DNA from: Armatimonadota bacterium
Lineage (GTDB): Bacteria > Sysuimicrobiota > Sysuimicrobiia > Sysuimicrobiales > JACQTN01
DNA: 12,240 nucleotides
Direction of reading: 5' to 3'
Assembly: GCA_016210785.1 (NCBI GenBank)
Contig: JACQTN010000545.1
Coordinates: 1 to 12,240, forward strand
Part shown: positions 1-12,240 of the stretch, one piece after another
How positions within the stretch are numbered: position 1 is the first letter of the stretch
Layout: every line of letters starts with the position of its first letter
The notes under the pieces: model-generated
What the model was told of the DNA's origin: nothing
Seen by the model: only the letters and a program-made list of their open reading frames with translations
Databases searched by the model: none
Made by a program: the position numbers and the translations under genes

Positions 1-112
1 GAAATGCTCCGAAGCTGCGTGGGTGGTGCCAGATCAGCATGCTCCTTGCACAGGGTGGCGGACGCCTATGATGACGGAGCACCTTGTACGGAGTGACCGG
101 GGCTAGCGGGGC
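1..112. other. Leading non-coding stretch, no gene recognised
   Basis: No convincing coding sequence. One frame stays open from base 1 to a TGA at 94-96, but its translation is Cys-rich and unlike a known protein. An inverted repeat TGCTCCG (5-11) / CGGAGCA (75-81) could form a loose hairpin. No clear -10/-35 pair is visible ahead of the first gene. It may be the tail of an intergenic region that begins outside the window. Confidence 0.3.
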
Positions 113-412
113 ATGCGCCGGATCGTCTTCTTCGGGATGTTCGCCGTAGCCATCTGGGCGCTCGCGGAGCTGTGGGCCCTGGCCGGGCCGGTGTGGGAGC
201 AGCGCTCGGGGGGCCCCTGGCCGGCCGCCCTCGGGTACGCCGCGCTCCTGGTGGGAAGCTTCCTCTACCTGGGGTTCCTGCTGTATGAGGCGGACCGGGC
301 CGCGGGACGCGTGAAGCGGCCCATCGCCTTGTACGACCGCTGGATCGCTGCCAAGCAGCGGAGGATCAACAAGGGTTCAGGGGACTCACGGCGGCTCACG
401 AGGGAGGCGTGA
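113..412 (+). CDS. Small two-helix membrane protein, unknown function
   Basis: I do not recognise this 99-residue protein. Two hydrophobic segments are visible, at about residues 4-26 and 37-58, joined by a short loop rich in Gly, Pro and Trp. The C-terminal 40 residues are basic (RVKRP, KQRRINK) and would sit in the cytoplasm by the positive-inside rule. The shine-Dalgarno-like sequence is weak (GGGG about 4 nt before the ATG). Its TGA (410-412) overlaps the next ATG by one base, so the two are probably translated together. The protein could be an accessory or assembly factor of a membrane complex, but nothing in the sequence shows this. The ATG at 137 is an alternative start but would remove part of the first helix. 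Confidence 0.6.
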   Translation: MRRIVFFGMFAVAIWALAELWALAGPVWEQRSGGPWPAALGYAALLVGSFLYLGFLLYEADRAAGRVKRPIALYDRWIAAKQRRINKGSGDSRRLTREA

Positions 413-606
413 TGGACGACGGGCGTCGCCGGTACGGACTGGTGCTGTTGCTGCTGATCGCCGCCGCGGCGGTGTGCGCGGTCGGGGTGCTCGTGGGCGA
501 GCTGACGGGGCGGTGGAACCTGGGCGGCGTCTTCCTGGGCGTGCTGCTCATCGTCTACTCGTTCATCGTCCTGGTGTTGCGCAAGGGCGGGTTCACTCAG
601 GCTTAG
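412..606 (+). CDS. Small two-helix membrane protein, unknown function
   Basis: A 64-residue protein with two predicted membrane helices (about 9-30 and 37-56) and short charged ends (DDGRRR at the N-terminus, RKGG near the C-terminus). The ATG at 412 is preferred over the GTG directly before it: AGGGAGG at 401-407 lies about 4 nt upstream and the ATG overlaps the stop of the preceding gene (TGATG). It forms a translationally coupled pair with the upstream two-helix protein. No family recognised. A structured repeat begins 6 nt after its stop codon. Confidence 0.6.
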   Translation: MDDGRRRYGLVLLLLIAAAAVCAVGVLVGELTGRWNLGGVFLGVLLIVYSFIVLVLRKGGFTQA

Positions 607-611
607 CAGGT

Positions 612-945
612 AAGGTTGGGCGGAGTGACTTTACGCCACTCCGCCCTCCACCAAGTGTCCGACGAGGGGAGGGCCTTCGCGGCACGTGCGACGTTCTTAC
701 GAGGCGCGCCGTTCTACCGCGCGGCACGTTCAACGTCGGTGCAAGGTGCGCCACTCTGCCGCGCTCACCGGACTCACGGCGCACCGCCTCACGGCGCACC
801 TGCGACGGTGTGGGTTCCGGAACACAGATGATGCTCGGACTGACCCACCTGAAATCTCTGGACTGCCTCTGCAGTGGGCAGGTCGAAGCTCTGCAGAGAT
901 TGCAGGCGGGTCACAGGCTCAGCCGGTCCTGCGCATGAATGAGGC
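612..945 (+). repeat. Structured intergenic repeat, copy 1
   Basis: This fills most of the 382-base gap between genes. It matches 8047-8376 and the start of the stretch at 12104. It opens with AAGGTTGGG and a perfect 10-bp hairpin (arms 618-627 and 637-646, 9-nt loop). A block conserved in all copies follows (GTGTCCGAC, then a G-rich run and CCTTCGCGGCACGTG). Two modules start with GGCACGT at 681 and 723; the second ends in a 26-nt core (757-782) containing CCGCGCTCACC and GGACTCACGGCG, while the first is shortened after TACCGCGC. The tail has GATGATGCTCGG (827-838), a long hairpin found only in this copy, and GCATGAATGAGGC (933-945). No terminal inverted repeats or transposase seen. The strand is given as that of the upstream gene. 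Confidence 0.8.
841..913 (+). other. Long stem-loop upstream of the cytochrome b cluster
   Basis: Arms 841-860 and 894-913 pair over 20 positions with one mismatch (852/902) and one G-T pair. The 33-nt loop holds a smaller perfect hairpin, ACTGC-ctct-GCAGT (862-875). It sits in the tail of repeat copy 1, where copy 2 has only a short hairpin (CAGC-caa-GCTG, 8346-8356). There is no T-run, so it is not a standard intrinsic terminator. It lies about 75 nt before the cytochrome b start and could act as a leader structure or RNA-stability element. Confidence 0.5.
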
Positions 946-988
946 AAAGGTTTACTGAGAGGCGCTCGTAGGCGGGGAGGCGTACACG

Positions 989-2206
989 GTGTACAAGCGC
1001 TGGCTTCGGGCCCTGCAGCGTGCCACCCTCAGGGTGGACGTCTTCATCAACCGCGTCTATCCCAGCGAGTGGAACCCGCTGTACTTCACGGGCGGCCTGG
1101 GCAACCTGTTCCTGGTGGTGCTGGTGCTGTCGGGGATCTTCATCTTCCTCTACTACATGCCGTCCATCGACAGCGCGCACAACTCCGTCAGCTACCTGAC
1201 CGAGCGGGTTCCCTACGGCGGGCTGATTCGCGGCATCCACCGATACGCCGCGGACGGCTTCATGCTGGCCATCCTGCTGCACCTGTTCCGGAACTGGTTC
1301 ACCGACCGCTACCTGTTCTCGCGGGACAGCCCGTGGATCTCCGGCATGTTCCTGCTGGGCTTCGCCGGATTCGTGGGCGTCAATGGCTACATGATGGCCT
1401 GGGACGACCGCGGCCAGGCGCTGCTGGCGATGACGGTGCGCGTGCTGGAGAGCATCAACCTGCGCCTGCCGTTCCTGGTCATCACCACACACCCCCTGGG
1501 GTTCGGCGGCATCGAGTGGGTGCACGTGGGCCGCGCCACCGCGGACCTGCTCACGGCAGGTCCGGGCATCGGGGAGGGGACACTGGTCCGTCTGCTCTAC
1601 ATGCACGTCGTGCCGGCCTCCACGCTATTCCTGCTGCTGTGGTGGCACTACGTGCGGCTGCGCCATCCCAAGATCTGGCCGCCCGCCACGTGGGTGCTGT
1701 TCTGCCTGGGCGCGGTGACCTTCTTTGCCGCGGTGGTGCCCGCGGTGAGCGGCACCCCGGCCCAGCCGGCCGGGAAGCCCGCCGCGTTCCCGCTGGACGT
1801 CTTCTACCTGCTGCCGTACTGGCTGCTGAAGTTCATGGGGCCGGTGGTGGTGGTGGTGCTGGGCGTGGCCGTCTTCGCGTACGGGTTCTACATCCCATAC
1901 CAGATGCGGGAGGAGCAGATCGAGCCGCTGCGCCATGCCGGCAAGGCGATCGTCATCGAGCCCAACTGCACCGGCTGCGAGCTGTGCTACTACGACTGCC
2001 CCTACAACGCCATCGTGATGGCGTCCTCCCCGCGGCCCGGCCAGACCCGCGCGGCCGCCAACCGGAAGCTGGTGGCGATCGTGCTGGACTCCCGGTGCGT
2101 GGAGTGCGGGATCTGCATCGGGGCCTGCCCCTTCCAGGCCCTGGAGCTGCCGCAGATCACCGAAGCCCAAATCCAGGAGAAGGTGCTGGCGGCATGTCGG
2201 ACCTGA
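989..2206 (+). CDS. Cytochrome b fused to a 2x[4Fe-4S] ferredoxin domain
   Basis: A 405-residue quinone-reactive membrane protein. The N-terminal part (about 1-230) is a bc1/b6-type cytochrome b with four helices. Its heme-b ligands are H84 and H98 on one helix and H206 and H220 on another, both pairs with 13 residues between them; b6-type proteins usually have 14 in the second pair. Two more hydrophobic segments follow (about 234-253 and 272-300). In the region where bc-type proteins carry PEWY, the sequence reads FPLDVFYLLPYW, so the usual Qo glutamate motif is missing. The C-terminal domain carries two cluster motifs, C327/C330/C333/C337 and C370/C373/C376/C380, each last Cys followed by Pro, and probably faces the cytoplasm. 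The GTG start follows GGGGAGG at 974-980. The 3' end overlaps the next gene by 13 nt. No Rieske gene is present in the window. It likely moves electrons between menaquinol and the next gene's product. Confidence 0.9.
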   Translation: MYKRWLRALQRATLRVDVFINRVYPSEWNPLYFTGGLGNLFLVVLVLSGIFIFLYYMPSIDSAHNSVSYLTERVPYGGLIRGIHRYAADGFMLAILLHLFRNWFTDRYLFSRDSPWISGMFLLGFAGFVGVNGYMMAWDDRGQALLAMTVRVLESINLRLPFLVITTHPLGFGGIEWVHVGRATADLLTAGPGIGEGTLVRLLYMHVVPASTLFLLLWWHYVRLRHPKIWPPATWVLFCLGAVTFFAAVVPAVSGTPAQPAGKPAAFPLDVFYLLPYWLLKFMGPVVVVVLGVAVFAYGFYIPYQMREEQIEPLRHAGKAIVIEPNCTGCELCYYDCPYNAIVMASSPRPGQTRAAANRKLVAIVLDSRCVECGICIGACPFQALELPQITEAQIQEKVLAACRT

Positions 2207-2628
2207 GCCCTAAGATCATTGGTTTCGTGTGCGACTGGAGCGTGGCGCTGGCCGAGGCGGTGACCGAGGACGGCCGGCTGCGGGCGCTGCCCAACGTGCA
2301 CATCATCATGGTCCCGTGCTCGGGCTTCCTGCGACCCCAGTGGGTGGAACTGGCGCTGAAGCAGGGCGCCGACGGCGCCTTCGTCTGCGGCTGTCCCTAT
2401 GGCGACTGCCTGAACCGGGAGGGCAACTACCTGATCCGGGACCGCATCCAGCAGATGCGGCGCCGGCTGCAGCGCCAGCGGGTGGACCCCGACCGCGTGG
2501 CGATGATCGCGTACGGGTTCCACGACGGGGAAGCGTTCATCGCCGCCGTGCGGGAGTTCGCCGATCGCGTGCGGGCCATGGGCACGGCGGCGCCGTCCGC
2601 CAGGGCGCCAGTATCGGGCAGCTCGTAG
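2194..2628 (+). CDS. MvhD/FlpD-type iron-sulfur protein (hydrogenase delta subunit family)
   Basis: A 144-residue soluble protein of the family that includes methyl-viologen-reducing hydrogenase delta subunit MvhD, which carries a [2Fe-2S] cluster and passes electrons between hydrogenase or formate dehydrogenase and heterodisulfide reductase. Visible marks are C13, C42 in VPCSGFLRP, and C65, C67 and C72 in FVCGCPYGDC, followed by the usual EGNY (77-79). The ATG at 2194 is chosen because AGGAGAAGG lies about 10 nt upstream and the resulting length suits the family. It overlaps the cytochrome b-ferredoxin gene by 13 nt, which implies coupled translation and a direct redox partnership with the ferredoxin domain. 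No hdrA, hdrBC or hydrogenase gene lies in the window, so the cytoplasmic partner is unknown. The C-terminal 15 residues are low-complexity Ala/Ser/Pro. Confidence 0.85.
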   Translation: MSDLSPKIIGFVCDWSVALAEAVTEDGRLRALPNVHIIMVPCSGFLRPQWVELALKQGADGAFVCGCPYGDCLNREGNYLIRDRIQQMRRRLQRQRVDPDRVAMIAYGFHDGEAFIAAVREFADRVRAMGTAAPSARAPVSGSS

Positions 2629-2731
2629 GCGTACCCGCCAGGACCTGTCGCGGTCCGGAGACCGCCGTCTCGGTGGTGGTGACGTTGGCGCGCCCGAGCC
2701 GCCGGGGCGGGCGTCGGGAGGAGGTGAGGGC

Positions 2732-2842
2732 ATGCCCCCCAAGCGCACGCTGGGAGTGACGATCGCCTACATCGTGTTCTACGTGCTCTTTTTCGCGCTG
2801 CTGACCCTCATCAGCATGTTCGGGATGATTGCGGAGGTCTGA
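2732..2842 (+). CDS. 36-residue single-helix protein, probable oxidase-type small subunit
   Basis: A short gene with a strong ribosome binding site, AGGAGGTGAGG at about 2719-2728, just ahead of ATG 2732. The product has a basic start (MPPKRT) and one membrane helix at about residues 9-32, ending MIAEV before the stop. Size, topology and position directly before a CcoN-like gene match the tiny subunits of heme-copper oxidases (CcoQ of cbb3, subunit IIa of ba3), but I see no diagnostic motif. The 103-nt gap before it contains a perfect 6-bp stem with a CGGA tetraloop (2650-2655/2660-2665). Confidence 0.65.
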   Translation: MPPKRTLGVTIAYIVFYVLFFALLTLISMFGMIAEV

Positions 2843-2870
2843 CCACCGGTCTTCATGGAGAGTCTCGACG

Positions 2871-4280
2871 ATGGGATCCCTGGTCGACTGGGTCGCACCC
2901 CAGACTGAGGACAGCGCCGCCCGGCGCTTCCTGTACTCCTCTGTCTTCTGGCTGCTGGTCGGCGTGCTGCTGGGGCTGACCATGGTCGTCAAGGTCCTGG
3001 TCCCCGACCTGCTGGGCGGCGTGGCCTGGCTGTCTTTCGGCCGGATCCGCCAGATCCACGTGGACCTGGGGCTCTTCGGTTTCCTGAGCGCCGCCCTCCT
3101 GGCCGCCGCCTGCTTCGTGGTGCCGCGCCTGTGCCGTGCCCCGCTGGCCGGGGAGCGGGCTGCCAACCTGGCGGTGTGGGCCTGGAACGCGGCGGCGGCG
3201 CTGGCGGTGATTACGCTGGCGGGCGGGCAGACGCGGGGCCGGGAGTGGGGCGAGGCGGTCTGGTCGGTGGATCTCCTGCGCCTGGCTGCCTTTGTGCTGC
3301 TGTGGTTCGCCGTCTTTCGCACGATCCGCCGGCGCCGGTCGCCCGAGATGTACGTCACGCTGTGGTACCTGGCGGCGGCGCTGGTGTGGGGGCCGATGGT
3401 GCTGTTCTTCGGCAAAGGTCTGTGGGCGCCGGCCACGCCCTACGCGGGCGTGGTGGAGGCGCTGGCGGGATGGTTCACCGGGCACGGCATGATCACGCTG
3501 TGGGCCGGCGCGCTGGCACTTGGCGTCGCGTATTACCTCGTGCCCAGGCTCAGCGGCAACCCGCTGTACAGCGTCACGCTGGCCGCGGTGGGGTTCTACG
3601 GGCTCGCGTTGTTCGGGCCGTTCGCCGGCCCCCTCCCGAGCGTGGGCGGCCCGGCACCGTACTGGCTGCAGACCGTGGCCGTGGTGGCGGGCGTCATGCT
3701 GCTGATCCCCGGGCTGAGCGCGGCCACCAATCTCTGGAGGACCCTGGGCGGCGCGTGGGACCGGGTCCGCGCCGACGTGGCGCTGGCCTTCGCCGTGGTG
3801 GGCATCCTGGCGTACCTGCTCTCCGTGGTGCAGGGAGCGCTGGCAGCGCTGCGGGTCGTCCACAACTTCCTGGCCTTTACCCAGTGGGGCGCCGGCCAGA
3901 CGATGCTGACACTGGGCCTGGCGTACGGCTCCTTTGCCCTGGCTGCGGTGTACCACATGCTGCCCGCCGTCACCGGGCGGCGGCTGTATAGCGAGCGCCT
4001 GGCGTGGTGGCACTTCTGGCTGTCGGTGCTGGGCTGGGTCGTCTTCCTGTCCCTGTTCTGGGTGGCCGGGCTCGTGGAAGGCGTGATGTGGAACGCCGGC
4101 GCCACGCCGTTCATCGCCTCCGTGAAGGCCACGGTCCCGCTGTGGGCCGGGCGGCTCGTGGCGGGGACCGCGATCGTGACCGCCCAGGTGCTGTTCGCGT
4201 ACAATGTCTACTCCACGGCGGTGGCCGGAACGACAGTGCCCGCGGCGGAGCGGGAGCGCGAGGCGGTGGCGACGGCATAG
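2871..4280 (+). CDS. CcoN-like heme-copper oxidase subunit I homologue lacking most metal and heme ligands
   Basis: A 469-residue, about 12-helix membrane protein that aligns by eye with cbb3 oxidase subunit I. Shared features are FGRIRQIH (56-63), GHGMITLWAG (204-213), YYLVPRLSGNPLYS (221-234), WLQT...MLLIPG (265-281), LGGAWDRVR (292-300), WWHFWL (379-384) and WVAGLVEGVMW (397-407). The ligands are the odd part. H63 (low-spin heme side) and H205 (first CuB ligand position) remain. The CuB His-His pair after GP is Phe-Ala (GPFAGP, 249-254). The helix-10 heme histidines (GHVH in cbb3) are Q343 and M345 within WGAGQTM. O2 reduction is therefore unlikely; the role may be structural, quinone-binding or heme-b binding. 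ATG 2871 follows GGAGAG; an upstream TTG in frame at 2829 has no support. It lies 28 nt after the small single-helix gene and before a CcoO-like cytochrome c. Confidence 0.85.
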   Translation: MGSLVDWVAPQTEDSAARRFLYSSVFWLLVGVLLGLTMVVKVLVPDLLGGVAWLSFGRIRQIHVDLGLFGFLSAALLAAACFVVPRLCRAPLAGERAANLAVWAWNAAAALAVITLAGGQTRGREWGEAVWSVDLLRLAAFVLLWFAVFRTIRRRRSPEMYVTLWYLAAALVWGPMVLFFGKGLWAPATPYAGVVEALAGWFTGHGMITLWAGALALGVAYYLVPRLSGNPLYSVTLAAVGFYGLALFGPFAGPLPSVGGPAPYWLQTVAVVAGVMLLIPGLSAATNLWRTLGGAWDRVRADVALAFAVVGILAYLLSVVQGALAALRVVHNFLAFTQWGAGQTMLTLGLAYGSFALAAVYHMLPAVTGRRLYSERLAWWHFWLSVLGWVVFLSLFWVAGLVEGVMWNAGATPFIASVKATVPLWAGRLVAGTAIVTAQVLFAYNVYSTAVAGTTVPAAEREREAVATA

Positions 4281-4316
4281 TTTACGGATGCAGGGAAGGA
4301 TCAAACGGAGGAGACG

Positions 4317-4799
4317 ATGCCGCAGAGCCTCAACAGAATCGTGGTGACGGCCGTCGGGCTGCTGGTGCTGGGCGTGCTGGTCACGCTGGTGCTGCCGGCG
4401 GGGGATGAGGCGCTGCATCGTTCCTCGCAGGAGAAGAAGCCGCTGACGGCGCTGGAGGAACGGGGACGGCAGGTGTTCCTGCGCGAGGGGTGTTGGGCCT
4501 GCCACACCGAGCAGGTGCGGGCGATCGAGGCCGGGTTCGCCCACATCCGCCAGCCGGGCGATATCGGCGCTGCTTCGGAGGGTGGAGAGTACGCCGCGCG
4601 CAGCCCCGCGCTGCTTGGGGCGCGCCGTCGCGGTCCCGATCTGACCCGCGTCGGGACGCGCCTGTCCAGCAAGGAGTGGCACGTCCGACACCACCAGGAC
4701 CCGCAGGCGGCCAGCACGGGATCCATCATGCAACCGTACGGGTATCTCTCCCAGGCCGACCTGGACGCGCTGGCGGCCTACATGCTCAGCCTGAAGTGA
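4317..4799 (+). CDS. Membrane-anchored monoheme cytochrome c, CcoO-like
   Basis: A 160-residue cytochrome c resembling subunit II (CcoO) of cbb3 oxidase. One N-terminal helix (about 9-27) anchors a periplasmic domain with heme motif CWACH (C59, C62, H63). The CcoO-like block GARRRGPDLTRVG (101-113), a Trp-His pair (WH, 121-122), and a likely axial Met at M138 in SIMQPYGYL follow. The start has a strong GGAGGAG at 4306-4312. It follows the CcoN-like gene after 36 nt, the usual ccoN-ccoO order, although the partner subunit has lost its catalytic ligands. It probably carries electrons between the membrane complex and the next cytochrome c or the cupredoxin. Confidence 0.88.
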   Translation: MPQSLNRIVVTAVGLLVLGVLVTLVLPAGDEALHRSSQEKKPLTALEERGRQVFLREGCWACHTEQVRAIEAGFAHIRQPGDIGAASEGGEYAARSPALLGARRRGPDLTRVGTRLSSKEWHVRHHQDPQAASTGSIMQPYGYLSQADLDALAAYMLSLK

Positions 4800-4844
4800 G
4801 CGCGACATCTTCCGACGGGCTCAGGACAGGGAGGCAATCATCGC

Positions 4845-5513
4845 ATGGCGCAGCAGCCCAAGACGCAACAGGCTGAGCCGCAGCCCCCGCAGGAGCGGCA
4901 GCTCGGCGGATTTCTGGTGCGCGAGGGGCGCGTCCCGTGGGGCCTGCTCCTCCTGTACGCCGTGCTGCCGCTGTGGGGCATCTACTACATGTTCAGCGGG
5001 CTCTCCGCCCCGGAGATCACGCCCAGGCCGCCCGTGGCCGTGGCGCCCCCGGCGGCCCCTGGCGCGCCTGCCCCGGGCGCGCCAGGGGCCGCACCGCCGC
5101 GTCCCGGCGCCCCACCCACGCCCGCCGCGCCGCGCCCGCCCGACGCGTTCACGAAGCAGGCCCAGGAGATCATCGCCTCCGTGCCCGAGGCGGAGCGTGG
5201 CAAGACGCGCCCCCAGGTGAGCCCGGCGGCCCTCGCCGCGGCAAAGCAGCAGTTCGGCTCGCTGTGCGCCATCTGTCACGGCCCGCAGGGGCGTGGCGAC
5301 GGTCCCGCGGGGGCCGGCATGACGCCTCCGCCCATGAACTTCGCGGCCGGCTCATTTGTCAACATCCCGGAGGGCGTGACCTTTTACGTCGTCAAGCACG
5401 CCGTGATGGTGGGAGGGAAACCGCGCAGCGCGATGCCGCCCTTCGGGTCGTCGCTGAGCGACGAGCAGATCTGGGCCCTGGTCGCCTACCTGCGGGATAC
5501 CTTCGCGAAATAG
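4845..5513 (+). CDS. Membrane-anchored cytochrome c with a Pro/Ala-rich linker
   Basis: A 222-residue protein with a short cytoplasmic N-terminus rich in Gln and Pro, one membrane helix (about 31-50, VPWGLLLLYAVLPLWG), a Pro/Ala/Gly linker (about 57-100) and a class-I cytochrome c domain. Heme motif CAICH (C141, C144, H145) is followed by GPQGRGDG and a likely axial Met M197 in SAMPPFG; the ending DEQIWALVAYLRD is typical of the family. The layout resembles CcoP-type or tethered electron-shuttle cytochromes, but with a single heme. GGGAGG lies about 10 nt before the ATG. The linker DNA contains a perfect 17-bp inverted repeat (5052-5092). It probably delivers electrons over a distance through its flexible tether. 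Confidence 0.88.
   Translation: MAQQPKTQQAEPQPPQERQLGGFLVREGRVPWGLLLLYAVLPLWGIYYMFSGLSAPEITPRPPVAVAPPAAPGAPAPGAPGAAPPRPGAPPTPAAPRPPDAFTKQAQEIIASVPEAERGKTRPQVSPAALAAAKQQFGSLCAICHGPQGRGDGPAGAGMTPPPMNFAAGSFVNIPEGVTFYVVKHAVMVGGKPRSAMPPFGSSLSDEQIWALVAYLRDTFAK
5052..5092. repeat. Perfect 17-bp inverted repeat inside the cytochrome c linker
   Basis: Arms 5052-5068 and 5076-5092 are exact reverse complements with a 7-nt loop (TGCCCCG). They lie wholly in the Pro/Ala/Gly linker codons. The stem is nearly all G-C and would be very stable in mRNA. It may be a by-product of low-complexity Pro/Ala/Gly coding, or a real translation or mRNA-processing element. Confidence 0.6.
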
Positions 5514-5599
5514 ACCCCTCGAGACATCTTTCGCGGCCGCCGGGGTGTTTGGCCGAAGTCCCCGCGCTAGGCCCGTGACCACCGCCGGGAGAGAATGAC

Positions 5600-5956
5600 G
5601 TGACCTGGCACAGGAGCGGCATCCTCATCACGGCGGCGGCGGTCGTCCTGGCCGCGTGCGGCGGGCCGTTCCGGAAACCCGCGCAGGCGCCCCACGAAAT
5701 CCGCCTGACGGAGAAGGAATGGGCCATCGAGCCAAAGAACGCCAGGGTGGCGGCGGGCATGGTCACGATCACCGTGATCAACCAGGGGACCGTCGAGCAC
5801 AACTTCGTGATCGAGCGCGTGGTCACCATTGAGCGCATCCAGCCTCGGGAGTCGAAAGCGGTGCAGGTCAACCTCAGCCCGGGCACATATCAACTCCTGT
5901 GCACGCTGCCGGGGCACCGCGAGGCCGGCATGACCGCGATCCTGAGGGTGGAATAG
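5600..5956 (+). CDS. Type-1 copper (cupredoxin) lipoprotein
   Basis: A 118-residue small blue-copper protein. The N-terminus is a lipoprotein signal, with hydrophobic residues 8-18 and lipobox LAAC (C20 would be lipidated), giving an outward-facing membrane-tethered protein. The cupredoxin fold is indicated by EWAIEPKNARVAAG and VTITVINQGTVEHNF. The copper ligands are H67, C101, H106 and M111 (C-x4-H-x4-M), a full type-1 set. GTG 5600 follows GGGAGAG with 6 nt spacing. It comes 86 nt after the tethered cytochrome c gene and is a plausible electron acceptor or donor for that cytochrome. The stop overlaps the next start by one base. Confidence 0.87.
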   Translation: MTWHRSGILITAAAVVLAACGGPFRKPAQAPHEIRLTEKEWAIEPKNARVAAGMVTITVINQGTVEHNFVIERVVTIERIQPRESKAVQVNLSPGTYQLLCTLPGHREAGMTAILRVE

Positions 5957-6969
5957 TGGGGACGAAGCCCTCCCCACAGGTGGATCTCACGCAGATCTAC
6001 GCGCCGGTGCAGGCCGACCTGGCGGCGCTGCCGGAGATGCTGCGCGACGAACTGCGGGCCGACGACTCCTTTATCGGCGAGCTGGTGGCGCACGTGCTCT
6101 CGACGCGGGGCAAGCTGGTCCGGCCGGCCCTGGTCTTCCTGAGCGCCCAGGCGTGCCGGGCTGAGATCGCCGCGCCGCCGCCCGGGGCGAAGGACGAGGA
6201 GATGCTGGTCGCCGCGGCCGTGGAGCTCATCCACGTGGCGTCCCTGATCCACGACGACGTGATCGACCAGGCCGACCTCCGGCGCGGCTCGGCGACGGTC
6301 AACACCCGGTGGGGCAACCAGGTGGCGGTCCTGCTGGGCGACTACCTGTTTGCCAAGTCCTTCCACCTGCTGTCTCGCATTTCCCACCCGGAGGTCGCGC
6401 CGGGGATCGCCATGGCCACGGTGAGGATGAGCCAGGCCGAGATCAAGCAGATCAAGTACGGGGGCACGCCGCACACACAGGAGCAGATCTACCTGGACAT
6501 CATCGACGGCAAGACGGCATGGCTCTTCTCCGCCGCCTGCCGGTGCGGCGCCCTGGTGGTAGGGGCCTCCGAGGCGCGGGCCGCGGCCCTGGCCGACTTC
6601 GGGCTCAACTGGGGCATGGCTTTCCAGATCGTGGACGACGCCCTGGACGTGACCAGCAGCACCCAGGCGCTGGGCAAGCCCATCGGCAGCGACATCAATA
6701 CCGGCAAGATTACCCTCCCCACGATCATCGCCCTCAAGCGGAGCGCGCCGGCCGATCGGGAGCGGCTGGAGCGCCTCCTGACGTCGCCGGACGGCGGGCT
6801 GGACGAGGTGCGGGAGATCATCGCGCGGTGCGACGGCGTGGGCGAGGCGCTCCGGACCGCGGAAGCCTACACGGCCCGTGCCGCCGCCGCCCTGACCGCC
6901 CTCAACGCAAGCCCGGCCCGCACCGGCCTCCTCGACCTCACCACCTTCGTGCTGCAGCGCCAGCACTAA
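5956..6969 (+). CDS. Polyprenyl diphosphate synthase (long-chain, quinone side chain)
   Basis: A 337-residue trans-isoprenyl diphosphate synthase that extends allylic diphosphate with isopentenyl diphosphate. Visible marks are GKLVRP (52-57), the first Asp-rich motif DDVID (100-104) after LIH, RRGSATVN (109-116), GDYLFAKSF (128-136), the second Asp-rich motif DDALD (227-231), and GSDINTGKITLP (244-255). Length and motifs fit the heptaprenyl/octaprenyl group (HepT/IspB) that makes menaquinone tails; exact chain length cannot be read here. GTG 5956 is chosen because GAGGGTGG sits 5 nt upstream and the GTG shares its G with the preceding TAG; the longer frame from 5899 would run through the cupredoxin gene. 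Its coupling to the electron-transfer genes suggests joint supply of quinone and its redox complex. Confidence 0.9.
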   Translation: MGTKPSPQVDLTQIYAPVQADLAALPEMLRDELRADDSFIGELVAHVLSTRGKLVRPALVFLSAQACRAEIAAPPPGAKDEEMLVAAAVELIHVASLIHDDVIDQADLRRGSATVNTRWGNQVAVLLGDYLFAKSFHLLSRISHPEVAPGIAMATVRMSQAEIKQIKYGGTPHTQEQIYLDIIDGKTAWLFSAACRCGALVVGASEARAAALADFGLNWGMAFQIVDDALDVTSSTQALGKPIGSDINTGKITLPTIIALKRSAPADRERLERLLTSPDGGLDEVREIIARCDGVGEALRTAEAYTARAAAALTALNASPARTGLLDLTTFVLQRQH

Positions 6970-6982
6970 CAATACCTGTGAC

Positions 6983-7005
6983 CCCTCTCCCCCTGGCGGA
7001 GAGGG
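6983..7005 (+). terminator. Stem-loop after the polyprenyl synthase gene, terminator-like
   Basis: CCCTCTCC (6983-6990) pairs perfectly with GGAGAGGG (6998-7005) across a 7-nt loop, starting 14 nt after the stop codon. There is no T-run, so intrinsic termination is not assured. The pattern resembles widespread intergenic CCCTCTCCC/GGGAGAGGG repeats. It may mark the 3' end of the cluster transcript. Confidence 0.45.
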
Positions 7006-7090
7006 CGCCGGTACGTGGGTGAGCGCAGTGTCACGTTGCGTCTTGCAAAAAGTGGAACGAGCCGGGTGAGGGGAATCCCGCGGAGGGGCC

Positions 7091-8041
7091 ATGATCGCTG
7101 TCACCGGGGCAGGCGGGTTCATCGGGCAGCACCTGCTGGATACCCTGCGGCAGGAGGGCCTGCCGGCGAGGGCGGTGGTGCGCCGGCCCCAGGCGCTGCC
7201 GCCCGAGGCGGGCGCCGTGGACGTGGCCGCGGCGGAGGTCGGCGACCCGGCGGCGCTGGAGGCGGCCTTCCGAGGCTGCCGCGCGGTCGTCCACCTGGTG
7301 GCGGTCATCCGCGAACGCGGGGCCGCGACCTTTGAGGCCGTGAACCGGCTGGGCGCCCGGCACGTGGCGACCGCGGCGCGGGCCGCGGGCGTGGCGCGCC
7401 TCGTCCACGTCAGCGCCCTGGGCGCGCGCCCCGACCAGCGGGGGCGCTACCTGGCCTCCAAGTGGCGCGGCGAAGAGGAGATCCGCGCCGGCGGCGTGCC
7501 CTGGGTCATCCTGCGGCCCTCCTTTGTCTTTGGGCCCGGCGGTGGGGCGATGGCGCAGTTCGCGGCCGTGGTGCGCTACGGTCCCTGGTATCCGGTGCGC
7601 CAGATCGCGGGCCGGGTGCCCGGCCTGGAGGCGCTGGCGTCGCTCGTGCCCGTCGTGCCGGTCCTGGGATCGGGGCAGTACCGGTCTATGCCGGTGGACG
7701 TGCGCGACCTGTGCGCGGGCATCGCGCAGGCCCTGACCCGCGACGGCGTTACGGATCAGACCTTCGAGCTGGGCGGCCCGGAGGTCGTCCCCTACGACGA
7801 CCTGATCCGGTTGATCGCCAGGACGCTGGGCGTGCGCCGCGCCCTGGTGCACGTGCCGCTGCCGGTGGCCTGGGGCATCGTGCGGGCGTCGCGTCTGCTG
7901 CCCGACCCGCCCATCACCCCCGACGAGTTCGAGGCGATCCTGGAGGACAACCTCTGCGACAACGGGCCGGCGCTGCGCGCCTTCGCCCTGCGGCTGCGTC
8001 CGCTGGCGGAGACGGTGGCCTGGTCGCTGGGCATCGCCTAG
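7091..8041 (+). CDS. NAD(P)-binding atypical SDR, NDUFA9/complex I 39-kDa-like epimerase family
   Basis: A 316-residue Rossmann-fold protein of the extended/atypical short-chain dehydrogenase family. The nucleotide site is TGAGGFIG (5-12) and R31 in VVRRP would favour NADP. HLVAVI (68-73), VSALG (107-111) and a Y120-x3-K124 pair (YLASK) follow, then LRPSFVFGPG (141-150). The C-terminal half (YRSMPVDVRDLC, FELGGPEVVPYDDL) is like NDUFA9-type proteins that bind NADPH and take part in complex I assembly or quinone/isoprenoid metabolism. The substrate cannot be told. ATG 7091 follows GGAGGGG closely. It stands alone between a hairpin and repeat copy 2, so it may be the last gene of the upstream unit or a monocistron. 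Confidence 0.83.
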   Translation: MIAVTGAGGFIGQHLLDTLRQEGLPARAVVRRPQALPPEAGAVDVAAAEVGDPAALEAAFRGCRAVVHLVAVIRERGAATFEAVNRLGARHVATAARAAGVARLVHVSALGARPDQRGRYLASKWRGEEEIRAGGVPWVILRPSFVFGPGGGAMAQFAAVVRYGPWYPVRQIAGRVPGLEALASLVPVVPVLGSGQYRSMPVDVRDLCAGIAQALTRDGVTDQTFELGGPEVVPYDDLIRLIARTLGVRRALVHVPLPVAWGIVRASRLLPDPPITPDEFEAILEDNLCDNGPALRAFALRLRPLAETVAWSLGIA

Positions 8042-8046
8042 CCGAT

Positions 8047-8376
8047 AAGGTTGGGTGGAGTGTCTTTGCGCCACTCCACCCTTCACGATGTGTCCGGACG
8101 GGGGAGGCTCTTCGCCGGCACGTGTGATGTTCCTTCGAGGCGCATCGTGCTACCGCGCTTACAGGACTCACGGCGGGCACGTTCGACGTTGTGCGCCGTG
8201 CCCCCTGGTACCGCGCTGGCCGTACTCACGGCGCCCATGACCGGCACGTGCCAGTATATGCTAGGTGTCCTATTCTGCCGCGCTCACCAACTTCGCGGCG
8301 CGCCCGCGACCGTGCGGAGTCCGGAATACCGATGATGCTCGGCCTCAGCCAAGCTGGGCCTGTGCATGAATGAGGC
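8047..8376 (+). repeat. Structured intergenic repeat, copy 2
   Basis: Begins 6 nt after the SDR stop with AAGGTTGGG. The opening hairpin has arms 8053-8062 and 8072-8081 with a 9-nt loop; relative to copy 1 one stem pair is T-A instead of C-G. Three modules start with GGCACGT at 8117, 8176 and 8243 (59 and 67 nt apart). Their 26-nt cores are at 8151-8176, 8209-8234 and 8276-8301; the third is the most divergent. The tail has GATGATGCTCGG (8331-8342), a short hairpin (8341-8360) and GCATGAATGAGGC (8364-8376). Reading frames inside are not conserved between copies, so it is unlikely to code for protein. Confidence 0.8.
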
Positions 8377-8493
8377 GTAGGCATTTCCAAGACGGGCTGT
8401 TGGCAGATGAGGTATCGCAGGCCATGCGCAGGGCCAGCCTGGCTGTTGACCCTCCGAGTAACATAGGAGAATCCCGCGGCGGGGTGTAACCGG
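8377..8493. other. Unassigned spacer between repeat copy 2 and the tatA promoter
   Basis: This 117-nt stretch holds no ORF with support. A small palindrome GCCAG-c-CTGGC lies at about 8434-8444 and a TTGACC at 8446-8451, but no -10 hexamer stands at the right distance from the latter. Nothing else recognised. Confidence 0.3.
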
Positions 8494-8499
8494 TATAAT
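8494..8499 (+). promoter_or_regulatory. Probable -10 element for tatA
   Basis: A perfect TATAAT in very GC-rich DNA, placed 64 nt before the tatA ATG. No good -35 hexamer is seen 16-18 nt upstream and there is no TGn extension, so an activator or a different sigma factor may be needed. Transcription would begin near 8506. Confidence 0.5.
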
Positions 8500-8562
8500 A
8501 GGGTGGTGGGTGAGCCCAGGCGCGTGGCCGGCGTGTGCGGAAGGCTGCGCGGGAGGTGGCGT

Positions 8563-8763
8563 ATGATCGGACTCGGCACGCAGGAACTGATCATCATCCT
8601 CATCATCGCGATCCTGCTCTTCGGGCCTTCCCGGCTGGCCGGCCTCGGCGGCGCGCTGGGGAAGGCCATCAAGGAGTTCCGCGGCTCGGTCAAGGACGTG
8701 GACGAGGAGCTGAAAGGGGGCGCCAAGGACGGCGAGACCCGGCGCCAGGAACCGCGCACGTAG
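8563..8763 (+). CDS. tatA: Twin-arginine translocase subunit TatA/TatE family
   Basis: A 66-residue TatA-family protein; these oligomerise to form the pore for export of folded proteins. It has the canonical layout: short N-terminus, one helix (about 8-21), FGPSRLAGLG hinge (20-29), amphipathic helix (ALGKAIKEFR, 31-40) and a charged tail. ATG 8563 is chosen because GGGAGGTG lies at 8551-8558; the longer frame from GTG 8503 would start about where transcription is expected. No tatC is in the window. Periplasmic Fe-S or copper proteins are common Tat cargo, but none of the neighbours shows a twin-Arg signal. Confidence 0.92.
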   Translation: MIGLGTQELIIILIIAILLFGPSRLAGLGGALGKAIKEFRGSVKDVDEELKGGAKDGETRRQEPRT

Positions 8764-8802
8764 TCGCGCCGATACCGCCGCACGATTCCGGAGCAGACCG
8801 GC

Positions 8803-9063
8803 GTGGCGCGCCGCACGCGCAGTCCGTGGTGGGTGCTGGTGGTCGTCGTCATCGTGGGCGCCATCCTGGGCAGCGTGATCGCCGAAGCGGTGGGTCAGTA
8901 CCCCGGCGCGGGGATTCTGGCCCGCAGCGTCACCGCCGGCCTCGATCCGCCGCTGTCGATCGACCTCCGCCTCTTCACCCTCACGCTGGGGCTGTCCCTT
9001 CGATTGAACCTGGCGACCCTGCTTGGTATAATACTGGCGGTGTGGATATTCCGGTTGCTCTGA
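8803..9063 (+). CDS. DUF4321-like small membrane protein
   Basis: An 86-residue protein with a basic start (MARRTR) and two helices, about 9-30 and 66-86. The conserved look (GAILGSVIAE, then a loop with LSIDLRLFTLTLGLSLRLN) and its place ahead of radC-mreB-mreC match DUF4321 proteins of Bacillota; function unknown. The GTG start follows GGAGCAG with 6 nt spacing. The last 20 codons include ATA and TTG codons that are unusual for this genome and coincide with a promoter for the next genes. Confidence 0.72.
   Translation: MARRTRSPWWVLVVVVIVGAILGSVIAEAVGQYPGAGILARSVTAGLDPPLSIDLRLFTLTLGLSLRLNLATLLGIILAVWIFRLL
9004..9032 (+). promoter_or_regulatory. Strong sigma-70-type promoter for radC-mreBC, inside the DUF4321 gene
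   Basis: TTGAAC (9004-9009) and TATAAT (9027-9032) are separated by exactly 17 nt, and TGG just before the -10 gives an extended TGn motif. This is the best promoter match in the window. Transcription would start near 9039, about 185 nt before radC. Confidence 0.7.
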
Positions 9064-9070
9064 CGCCTTC

Positions 9071-9130
9071 CCTGAGTCCGTCGAAGGGTGTGCCCTGATC
9101 CTGTCGACGGGCGAGCGGCGTCGAAGGATC
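9071..9130. repeat. REP-like palindromic intergenic sequence
   Basis: Two versions of the common CCTGAGCCTGTCGAAGG-type motif stand in tandem: one at 9071-9087 and one at 9094-9110. The second forms a hairpin: arms 9097-9108 and 9120-9130 pair with one bulge. It lies in the DUF4321-radC gap, in the leader of the promoter just upstream. It is probably a dispersed REP-type element. Confidence 0.5.
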
Positions 9131-9223
9131 CCCCCAGCGAAATGCCGGAGCGCCTCCGGCCGCCTGTCGTCTGCGCGCGGTCTCCCCAATCGAGATCTCG
9201 GCGGCACGGGAGTGAAGCCGGGC

Positions 9224-10033
9224 ATGACGCCGTCTCCCCGCTCGACGCTGAAAGATCTGCCCGAGGAACTCCGTCCCCGGGAGCGCCTCATGCGCGCGGG
9301 CGCCGGCGCGCTCTCCACCGCCGAGCTGATCGCGATTCTCCTCCGCGTCGGAACCGCGCGCGTCACCGCTGTGCACCTGGCCGCCGAACTGCTGGTCCGC
9401 TTCGGCTCGCTCCAGGGCCTGGCCGAGGCGAGCGTCCAGGAACTCGGCGCGGTGAAGGGGATCGGGCCCGCCAAAGCGGTGCAGGTGCTGGCGGCGTTCG
9501 AGCTGGGACGCCGGCTGCACACCGCGGCGCCGCGGGCCCGGCACGTGGTGCGGACGCCCGCGGACATCGCCGCGCTCCTCATGCCCGGGATGCGCTACCT
9601 GGACCGGGAGCGCTTCTGCGCCGTGCTGCTGGACACGCGCCACCAGGTGATCGATGTGGTGGTGGTCTCTTTGGGCAGCCTCAACGCCACCACCGTGCAC
9701 CCGCGCGAGGTGCTGAAGGAGGCGATTCGCCGCAGCGCAGCCGCGCTGGTGCTGGTGCACAACCATCCGTCGGGGGACCCCGAGCCCAGCCGCGACGACG
9801 TCCGGGTGACAGAGCGGCTGCGGGCGGCGGGCGAGGTGGTGGGGATCGAGGTGCTCGACCACGTGATCCTGGGAGACGGGCGGCACGCCAGCCTGCGGGA
9901 GCGTGGTCTGGGGTTCTCCCCGGCGGATCCCGGCGCGCAGGGGCCGGTGCGAGAAGGCCCGCCGCACGGGCAGGCGCGCCGCCGGGGCGGCGGCCCGCGA
10001 CCGCGCGGGCCGGAACCGGGCGCGCGCGGGTAA
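9224..10033 (+). CDS. radC: RadC family JAB/MPN-domain protein
   Basis: A 269-residue RadC homologue. It opens with the family signature LKDLPEELRPRERLMRAGA (9-27), has a helix-hairpin-helix (ELGAVKGIGPAKAVQ, 73-87), and a JAMM zinc site H179-x-H181-x7-S189-x2-D192 (HNHPSGDPEPSRDD). The family was once tied to DNA repair; its molecular role remains unsettled. ATG 9224 is preferred over GTG 9212 because GGGAG at 9208-9212 is about 11 nt from the ATG but touches the GTG. The family core ends near residue 231 (LRERGLGF); the last 38 residues are a Pro/Gly/Arg-rich tail not usual in RadC of about 225 residues. Confidence 0.92.
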   Translation: MTPSPRSTLKDLPEELRPRERLMRAGAGALSTAELIAILLRVGTARVTAVHLAAELLVRFGSLQGLAEASVQELGAVKGIGPAKAVQVLAAFELGRRLHTAAPRARHVVRTPADIAALLMPGMRYLDRERFCAVLLDTRHQVIDVVVVSLGSLNATTVHPREVLKEAIRRSAAALVLVHNHPSGDPEPSRDDVRVTERLRAAGEVVGIEVLDHVILGDGRHASLRERGLGFSPADPGAQGPVREGPPHGQARRRGGGPRPRGPEPGARG

Positions 10034-10098
10034 GAGATGGGTGAGGGTGCCCCGGAGGAGGAGCAGAAGCGGCAGGGGCGGGGTGGGAGACGACGAAA

Positions 10099-10104
10099 TA
10101 TAAC
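10099..10104 (+). promoter_or_regulatory. Possible -10 element before mreB
   Basis: TATAAC lies in a short AT-rich island (10096-10110) in the otherwise GC-rich 175-nt gap before mreB. No good -35 is seen at the right spacing, so this is a weak call. The rest of the gap holds a purine-rich run (10034-10093) and GC-rich sequence with no recognised feature. Confidence 0.3.
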
Positions 10105-10190
10105 TAGATTGTGACCGGCCGCTACGCCCACCGCACCGCCCGGCGCGGGGGCGGCGAGCGGCGTGTCAATGACGTCGAGCGGCGCTGTAG

Positions 10191-11246
<1,056 letters not shown>

Positions 11247-11272
11247 GCAGGGAGGGGGGCGCAGCCGGGGCC

Positions 11273-12097
11273 ATGCGCATCCTTGCCGATGTTCTCAGCC
11301 GCCCGATCGCGCTGTTCGTGCTGCTGTTGTTCGTGACCCTGCTGACGCTGACGCTGCAGGTGCGCATGGAGCAGCGGCGGCAGGTGGGTGCGGTGGGCAT
11401 GCTGGTGCTCACCCTGCTGGCGCCGGTTCAGGATGGGCTGACGCGTGCCGCGGACGCGGGCGCGGGCAGCTGGCGCCTGCTGGCGGAGATCGGCGCGCTG
11501 CGGACGGAGAACGCCCGCCTGCACGCGGAGGTGGCCCGGCTGTCGCGCGAAGCGGCGGATCTGCGGGAGCGCGCCGCGGCCACCGAGCGGCTGGAGCGGC
11601 TGCTGGTGCTGACCCAGGAGCGGCCGGGGCGTCTGGTGGCGGGCCGCGTCATCGCCCGCGATGCCGCCGTGTGGCTCAGCACCGTCATGGTGGACCATGG
11701 ACGGGCGCACGGCGTGCGGCGCGGCGCGCCGGTGGTGGTGCCGGAGGGGCTGGTGGGGAGGGTGATGGAGGCCGCGCCCGCCAGCAGCCGCGTGCTGCTC
11801 ATCACCGACTCGCGCAGCGCCGTGGGGGCGCTCCTCCAGCGGTCCCGCGACGTGGGCGTGGTGGAGGGCACCGGGCACCCCATGCTGGTCATGCGCTACC
11901 TCTCCCGCGGAGCTGACGTGCGCGCCGGCGACGCCGTGGTCACCTCGGGTCTGGGCGGGGTCTTTCCCCGCGGCCTGGTCATCGGCACAGTCGTAGAGGT
12001 GGCCAAGGATCAGGTCGGCCTCTTCCAGGAGGCGAAGGTGAAACCGGCCGTCGACCTGGGCCGGCTGGAGGAGGTGCTCATCGGTCAGGAACCCTAG
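11273..12097 (+). CDS. mreC: Rod-shape-determining protein MreC
   Basis: A 274-residue bitopic membrane protein that links MreB to the periplasmic wall-synthesis machinery. It has one N-terminal helix (about 10-30), a further hydrophobic stretch (about 39-51), a coiled coil (about 68-112, rich in Leu, Glu and Arg) and the beta-domain. The domain includes GRVIARDAAVWLSTVMVDHG (124-143), VPEGLVGRV (156-164) and TSGLGGVFPRGLVIGTV (224-240). GGAGGGGGG (11251-11259) lies 13 nt before ATG 11273, a longer gap than usual. mreD normally comes next; instead a structured repeat begins 7 nt after the stop and fills the rest of the window. Confidence 0.95.
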   Translation: MRILADVLSRPIALFVLLLFVTLLTLTLQVRMEQRRQVGAVGMLVLTLLAPVQDGLTRAADAGAGSWRLLAEIGALRTENARLHAEVARLSREAADLRERAAATERLERLLVLTQERPGRLVAGRVIARDAAVWLSTVMVDHGRAHGVRRGAPVVVPEGLVGRVMEAAPASSRVLLITDSRSAVGALLQRSRDVGVVEGTGHPMLVMRYLSRGADVRAGDAVVTSGLGGVFPRGLVIGTVVEVAKDQVGLFQEAKVKPAVDLGRLEEVLIGQEP

Positions 12098-12103
12098 CCG
12101 GGG

Positions 12104-12240
12104 AAGGTTGGGTGAAGTGGCTTTGCGCCACTTCACCCTCCACCGAGTGTCCGACCGGGGGAGGCCCTTCGCGGCACGTGCTTCACGGTTGCGAGGAGCA
12201 CCATGCTACCGCGCTCGCCGGACTCACGGCGCCCCCACGA
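12104..12240 (+). repeat. Structured intergenic repeat, copy 3 (cut by window end)
   Basis: Starts with AAGGTTGGG 7 nt after the mreC stop. The hairpin arms 12110-12119 and 12129-12138 again pair perfectly over 10 bp, with a G-C to A-T compensated change not seen in the other copies and one shared with copy 2. The conserved block GTGTCCGAC-GGGGGAGGCCCTTCGCGGCACGTG follows, then one module (GGCACGT at 12173, 26-nt core 12207-12232). The rest lies beyond the window. Confidence 0.8.

Follow-up and report, generated by a model that had tools for sequence, protein, structure and literature searches.

We describe here a gene of the Armatimonadota bacterium assembly GCA_016210785.1 (GTDB order Sysuimicrobiales, hereafter the order) that encodes a homolog of CcoN, the subunit I of cbb3-type oxidases, in which most metal ligands are lost; we refer to it as pseudo-CcoN. 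It lies in contig JACQTN010000545.1, of which positions 1 to 12,240 of the forward strand were analyzed (the whole stretch is called the window). Pseudo-CcoN is now probably a structural part and not an enzyme, because the gene, with most of its metal ligands lost, is still preserved in relatives beside a quinol-oxidizing complex. The genes of the window follow each other in this order:

113..412, + strand: orfA, a small membrane-protein-like open reading frame (ORF) with no Pfam match
412..606, + strand: orfB, a small membrane-protein-like ORF, matched in some operons only
989..2206, + strand: cytochrome b2 fused to a 2x[4Fe-4S] ferredoxin domain (cyt b2-Fd; PF00033, Fer4)
2194..2628, + strand: MvhD/FlpD iron-sulfur protein (PF02662, 107 bits, scanned from 2203; start placed by eye)
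2871..4280, + strand: pseudo-CcoN, a ligand-poor CcoN homolog of 469 amino acids (aa) with 12 transmembrane (TM) segments; H63 and H205 retained, four ligand His gone
4317..4799, + strand: FixO/CcoO-like mono-heme cytochrome c (PF02433, 103.5 bits)
4845..5513, + strand: cytc2, a mono-heme cytochrome c with an N-terminal hydrophobic stretch (PF00034/PF13442)
5600..5956, + strand: cupredoxin (PF13473)
5899-6969: polyprenyl synthase, downstream of the respiratory genes
7091-8041: epimerase-like gene, after the polyprenyl synthase

The pseudo-CcoN ORF starts with ATG and is free of internal stop codons. Its product belongs to the heme-copper superfamily by fold (PF00115, 200 bits vs a cut-off of 34.8), and the predicted model is a confident 12-TM subunit I that resembles cbb3 CcoN (3mk7, 8smr, 6xkw) over its whole length, with 28-30% identity in structural alignments. 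The CcoN equivalog TIGR00780, in contrast, gave 249.4 bits, below its cut-off of 583.15. Six histidines define catalytic heme-copper proteins. We located the corresponding positions by aligning the window protein to Pseudomonas stutzeri CcoN (3mk7; CcoN numbers are chain positions), in which His60 and His347 bind the low-spin heme, His345 heme b3, and His207 together with His257-258 CuB. H60 and H207 correspond to H63 and H205, so that His is retained at both, whereas H345 and H347 became Q343 and M345, and the CuB pair H257/H258 became L255/P256 (FAGPLP vs WAGPHH). Four of the six ligands are thus lost, and CcoN tyrosine 251 is G249. The initial annotation, made from the sequence alone, had anticipated the ligand loss, the two helix-10 replacements and the survival of H63 and H205 alone at ligand positions, all of which the alignment bears out; it had put the missing CuB pair at Phe-Ala (251-252), which is the wrong place. 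Only five His exist in the protein, and because the three besides H63 and H205 stand opposite non-ligand CcoN positions, the lost metal sites are not refilled by other His.

Fold and PF00115 membership would also suit a working oxidase or nitric oxide reductase with other ligands. This is scarcely credible, with two of six ligands left in the window protein and none of the His, Cys or Met positions being invariant across the 19 rows formed by this protein and its 18 relatives described below. Replacement ligands elsewhere in the protein were rejected, as none is conserved across these rows. The results support the earlier assignment of the window protein, encoded by an intact gene with relatives under selection, as a non-oxidase member of the heme-copper superfamily.

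Of 61 genomes searched with the window protein, ten gave matches: its own genome, eight of the same order (37-41% identity), and one outside the order with an ordinary CcoN. With a profile, full-length matches among the 43 genomes of the order were confined to the same nine genomes; weak partial ones came from the window's own genome (contig C535) and G025. The protein database contributed ten further clade members, three of them nearly equal to genome rows; one, from bacterium HR32, is named cbb3-type oxidase subunit CcoN1 in its source record, and the ligand-less relative P0033 scored 78 bits with PF00115. All six ligand positions are non-His in 18/18 relatives (8 genome and 10 database rows), which are not independent: they form 16 groups at 99% identity, 15 at 95% and 13 at 90%. 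The loss is therefore not unique to the window sequence, and the initial suggestion that homologs with the same losses would be found beside cytochrome b-ferredoxin and MvhD genes proved right for the corresponding operon.

Ligand loss on this scale goes beyond ordinary variation, since all six His are present in 19/19 CcoN-like loci from outside the order. This control set was obtained with P0027 as query at E 1e-20, which matched 58 of 386 genomes and gave 20 loci, the window among them; the 25 ligand-bearing rows of our alignments, which were picked for having His, provide no independent control by their invariance. Among the 41 database proteins besides the window's, 22 have all six His, the ten clade members have none, and nine (P0009, P0023-P0030) lack three to six. 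The named source organisms of these nine are Verrucomicrobia or Terrimicrobiaceae. Searches of the 43 genomes of the order, many of them drafts, with the window protein and the profile found no live CcoN paralog except the partial, weak matches in C535 and G025. The former is an incomplete heme-copper oxidase-like gene, truncated at the contig end, in which the motifs WSHH and IHAH are found.

In a tree of 47 rows (P0015, P0018, P0019, P0022, P0028, P0029 and L032, mostly near-copies, and the partial L033 were excluded), the 19 rows form one clade with support 100/99, in which the window protein branches first, with no other member of its branch found in our searches. P0009, with six His lost, adjoins this clade on a long branch (97/97). 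Six further ligand-poor rows, with none to three of the His left, group together elsewhere in the tree (100/99). Ligand loss therefore seems to have arisen two or more times, although the meeting of long branches in this second group calls for caution.

The position of the window protein also bears on the proposal that it binds a single low-spin heme b through His63 and Met345 and relays electrons within an electron-transfer complex. Both residues occupy the low-spin heme ligand positions, and Y221, Y315 and S234, invariant among ligand-bearing rows, remain as well. However, 18/18 relatives have A, G or S at position 63 and none has Met at position 345, so that such a heme as a family trait, an idea of the initial annotation, is unsupported. 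As the window protein is on the first branch of the clade, H63 and M345 look like remnants; no homolog more than 41% identical, in which their conservation could be tested, came from the genome or protein-database searches. We regard a heme at this site as improbable even for the window protein.

The ratio of nonsynonymous to synonymous substitution rates (dN/dS) of pseudo-CcoN in the relatives is well below 1. A decaying gene or an assembly error might be suspected in a draft genome that is 72% complete and consists of 616 contigs, the more so as pseudo-CcoN evolves faster than its cytochrome b neighbors. We consider this explanation highly improbable and rejected it: matching losses in full-length frames occur in eight other genomes and ten database proteins, dN/dS is low, and the predicted fold is confident, in line with the earlier view of an intact gene.

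Selection on the relatives would also fit an active, heme-free subunit that moves protons or ions or binds quinone. In addition, 59 residues, some of them charged, are invariant in the 18 relatives and in the minority among ligand-bearing rows. On the other hand, Y223, Y251, N289 and Y317 (CcoN chain positions), invariant in ligand-bearing rows, are replaced in the 18 relatives by L/F/V, by G/A, by G (16/18) and by L/V/F, respectively (up to three commonest residues given); some of these four presumably belong to the proton path. An active role is thus unlikely, if somewhat less so than the His63-Met345 heme.

The upstream part of the operon lies on contig C233 (locus L101) of the same genome. 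The end of this contig matches the first 198 bases of the window, with 192 of 196 aligned positions identical, and the contig bears a diheme cytochrome c, a Rieske protein and cyt b1. All eight relatives share the order of the main genes, from the diheme cytochrome c through the polyprenyl synthase, preceded in seven by ccmC and ccmE; the contig of the eighth stops short. Matches to orfA and orfB occurred in only part of the eight.

The cyt b2-Fd gene was found in 37 of the 43 genomes of the order (E 1e-40), and the core complex therefore occurs more widely than the pseudo-CcoN module. We fetched neighborhoods for 15 of the 28 genomes with cyt b2-Fd and no pseudo-CcoN match. Of these 15 operons, nine have a cupredoxin match after MvhD, and in the other six the polyprenyl synthase comes immediately after MvhD; none of the 15 gave a match to the FixO-like protein or CcoN, and the cytc2 query matched only the diheme gene. 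Across the operons read, the three genes for pseudo-CcoN, the FixO-like protein and cytc2 are therefore present all or none (9/9 vs 0/15). BLAST with the window's cupredoxin, likely an electron carrier, matched 9/15 operons lacking pseudo-CcoN and 0/8 relatives having it. The module occupies the cupredoxin's place in 8/8 relatives, whereas the window carries both, which fits its early branch. orfA had a BLAST match in 15/15 operons without pseudo-CcoN and in only some of the others. A polyprenyl synthase match lies downstream in each of the 23 operons fetched from the order; this gene possibly supplies quinone side chains.

The partners of pseudo-CcoN keep their cofactor motifs. Next to pseudo-CcoN, as in cbb3 oxidases, lies the gene of a mono-heme FixO/CcoO-like cytochrome c (PF02433 cut-off 29.6), which stays under the ccoO equivalog cut-off (89.3 vs 200.65 bits); its CxxCH is invariant in 9/9 rows, and the alignment has no invariant Met column. 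In cytc2, CxxCH and one Met are invariant (9/9 rows). With its single CxxCH it is not a diheme CcoP (TIGR00782, 20.6 vs 179.95 bits), so that the system differs from cbb3 oxidases in lacking CcoP as well as in the ligands, of which the window protein lost 4/6 and the relatives 6/6. The cluster-binding Cys and His of the Rieske protein are invariant in 9/9 rows, and it matches solved Rieske proteins weakly (best E 2e-7); there is, however, no Pfam match, and Rieske_proteo scored 34.6, below its cut-off of 97.4. MvhD, whose start overlaps the 3′ end of the preceding gene, has four invariant Cys (10/10 rows).

The two cytochromes b are asymmetric. For each, 24 rows came from the order and the remainder from G151 and, for cyt b2, also G212. 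Cyt b1 scores above the cut-offs of PF00033 and PF00032 (one cyt b1 scanned) and has the PEWY-type quinol-site motif SDWY in 25/25 rows; cyt b2 does not have this motif. The first heme pair of cyt b1 is kept, but Arg replaces the second helix-B His in 25/25 rows, standing opposite the helix-B His of cytochrome b6 in an alignment with the latter, and in helix D, 14 residues past the first His, 25/25 rows have Phe, Tyr or Leu. The Rieske-partner cyt b1 hence lacks the heme bH ligands throughout. A motif script found no His 11 to 17 residues past the first one in helix D of 24/25 rows and in helix B of 18/25, the other rows being unmatched by it. In cyt b2-Fd, all four heme His are kept in 26/26 rows and the eight Fe-S Cys in 10/10. 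From such an asymmetric pair, a low-potential electron may exit via b2, [4Fe-4S] and MvhD.

On balance, we favor the view that a cbb3-type oxidase subunit I gave rise to the window protein, with the oxygen chemistry lost, and that pseudo-CcoN serves as a heme-free scaffold (perhaps nearly heme-free in this genome) that docks the FixO-like protein and cytc2 on the Rieske/cytochrome b complex. In a true cbb3 oxidase, CcoO passes electrons to heme b of CcoN. Where this heme is absent from the CcoN fold the path ends; therefore, both cytochromes c would have to pass electrons elsewhere. In its simplest role, the CcoN fold would hold the two cytochromes c at a complex of diheme cytochrome c, Rieske protein, cyt b1, cyt b2-2x[4Fe-4S] and MvhD; it would thereby put the cytochrome c hemes on the positive side, from where electrons may leave to soluble carriers and to A-type oxidases encoded elsewhere in the genome. 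Ligand loss, the predicted fold, gene order, the all-or-none module in the operons read, selection in relatives and the partner motifs are read directly from the data; the physical complex, the scaffold role and the direction of electron flow are what we infer from them. More tentatively, a complex of the one-heme b1 with Rieske, b2-[4Fe-4S] and MvhD, joined in one lineage by the heme-free scaffold with two cytochromes c, might split quinol electrons between a high-potential path via cytochrome c and a low-potential one via b2, Fe-S and MvhD.

Invariant positions of the 18 relatives are enriched on the positive side (54/183 vs 42/279 elsewhere; Fisher p 0.0003), the topology being assumed from the superfamily. 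Several observations weigh against the scaffold. Ligand-bearing CcoN shows a weaker trend of the same kind (19/176 vs 13/269, i.e., 6/104 + 7/165; p 0.02), and as the rows are moreover related, the side-conservation test is soft. H63 and H205 are present in the window protein and absent in the relatives; dN/dS is 2-5 times that of the cytochrome b subunits in matched genome pairs, and selection was measured in the relatives, not on the window's own branch. The module was not found in 28/37 genomes of the order with cyt b2-Fd, so the complex can do without it. Finally, G151, from another phylum, has a cluster of CcoN, FixO-cytochrome c, cytochrome c, Rieske, cyt b1, cyt b2-Fd and MvhD (locus L096) in which the CcoN has all six His; because this CcoN does not branch as sister to the ligand-less clade, an ancestral operon is not established, and the cluster is possibly an analog or a distant picture of the ancestral state. 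Of the four genomes searched in its phylum only G151 itself matched, and the lack of any match at E 1e-45 in the 297 genomes of the phylum of G212 carries no information, since the copy of G212 itself falls short of this cut-off. The genomes of the ligand-bearing L031 and L033 (38-43% identity; the frame of L031 is interrupted by a stop) yielded only partial cytochrome b/ferredoxin matches (best E 9e-31), and the ancestral operon was not seen in them.

COX1 matches besides pseudo-CcoN occur in 9/9 module genomes, although G028 has only weaker ones (best E 4e-44). The copies on contigs C386 and C607 of the window's genome, the two read by eye, keep all six ligands. Within the order, a COX1 match is present in 36/37 genomes that carry cyt b2-Fd vs 2/6 that lack it, several genomes being incomplete; this co-occurrence is in line with a role in an aerobic chain. 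Four genomes of one genus (g6: G005, G021, G029, G032) have neither cyt b2-Fd (E 1e-40) nor a COX1 match. COX1 hits should not be counted as oxygen respiration by themselves, as pseudo-CcoN illustrates.

In the literature searched (subscription papers and preprints were outside its reach), we found no description of a ligand-less CcoN or of this complex. In the bc1-cbb3 supercomplexes of Pseudomonas aeruginosa (8smr) and Rhodobacter capsulatus (6xkw), a CcoN-fold subunit likewise stands beside a Rieske/cytochrome b complex; their CcoN is a live oxidase, whereas pseudo-CcoN lacks the ligands needed for this. In bd oxidases with CydA and CydA', of another superfamily, a subunit homolog that has lost heme ligands stays in a respiratory complex. 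To our knowledge, pseudo-CcoN would be the first heme-copper subunit I to have turned purely structural. A maintained family without the six His indicates that the heme-copper fold can be retained for another purpose, and the ligand series 6, 2, 0 offers a case for studying how an enzyme becomes a scaffold. The complex around it, in which a one-heme cytochrome b is combined with an Fe-S branch, offers in turn a case in which divided quinol oxidation can be tested. Within the literature searched, the closest idea in print to the b1/b2 electron split concerns the Rieske/cytochrome b complexes of anammox Kuenenia, for which a role in making NAD(P)H, with an Fe-S protein as low-potential electron acceptor, was proposed (PMC12954380). 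These complexes have a putative NAD(P) reductase containing flavin adenine dinucleotide, unlike the cyt b2-ferredoxin, MvhD and pseudo-CcoN module found here. The main text of a paper on Sysuimicrobiota (PMC11604079) does not mention cbb3, ccoN, Rieske or cytochrome, nor does it name HR32.

Additionally, G212 (locus L095, 7738-9801) encodes cytochrome b, 2x[4Fe-4S] and an MvhD-like domain in a single protein of 687 aa, near SCO-like and heme-copper-oxidase-like genes (all named by eye).
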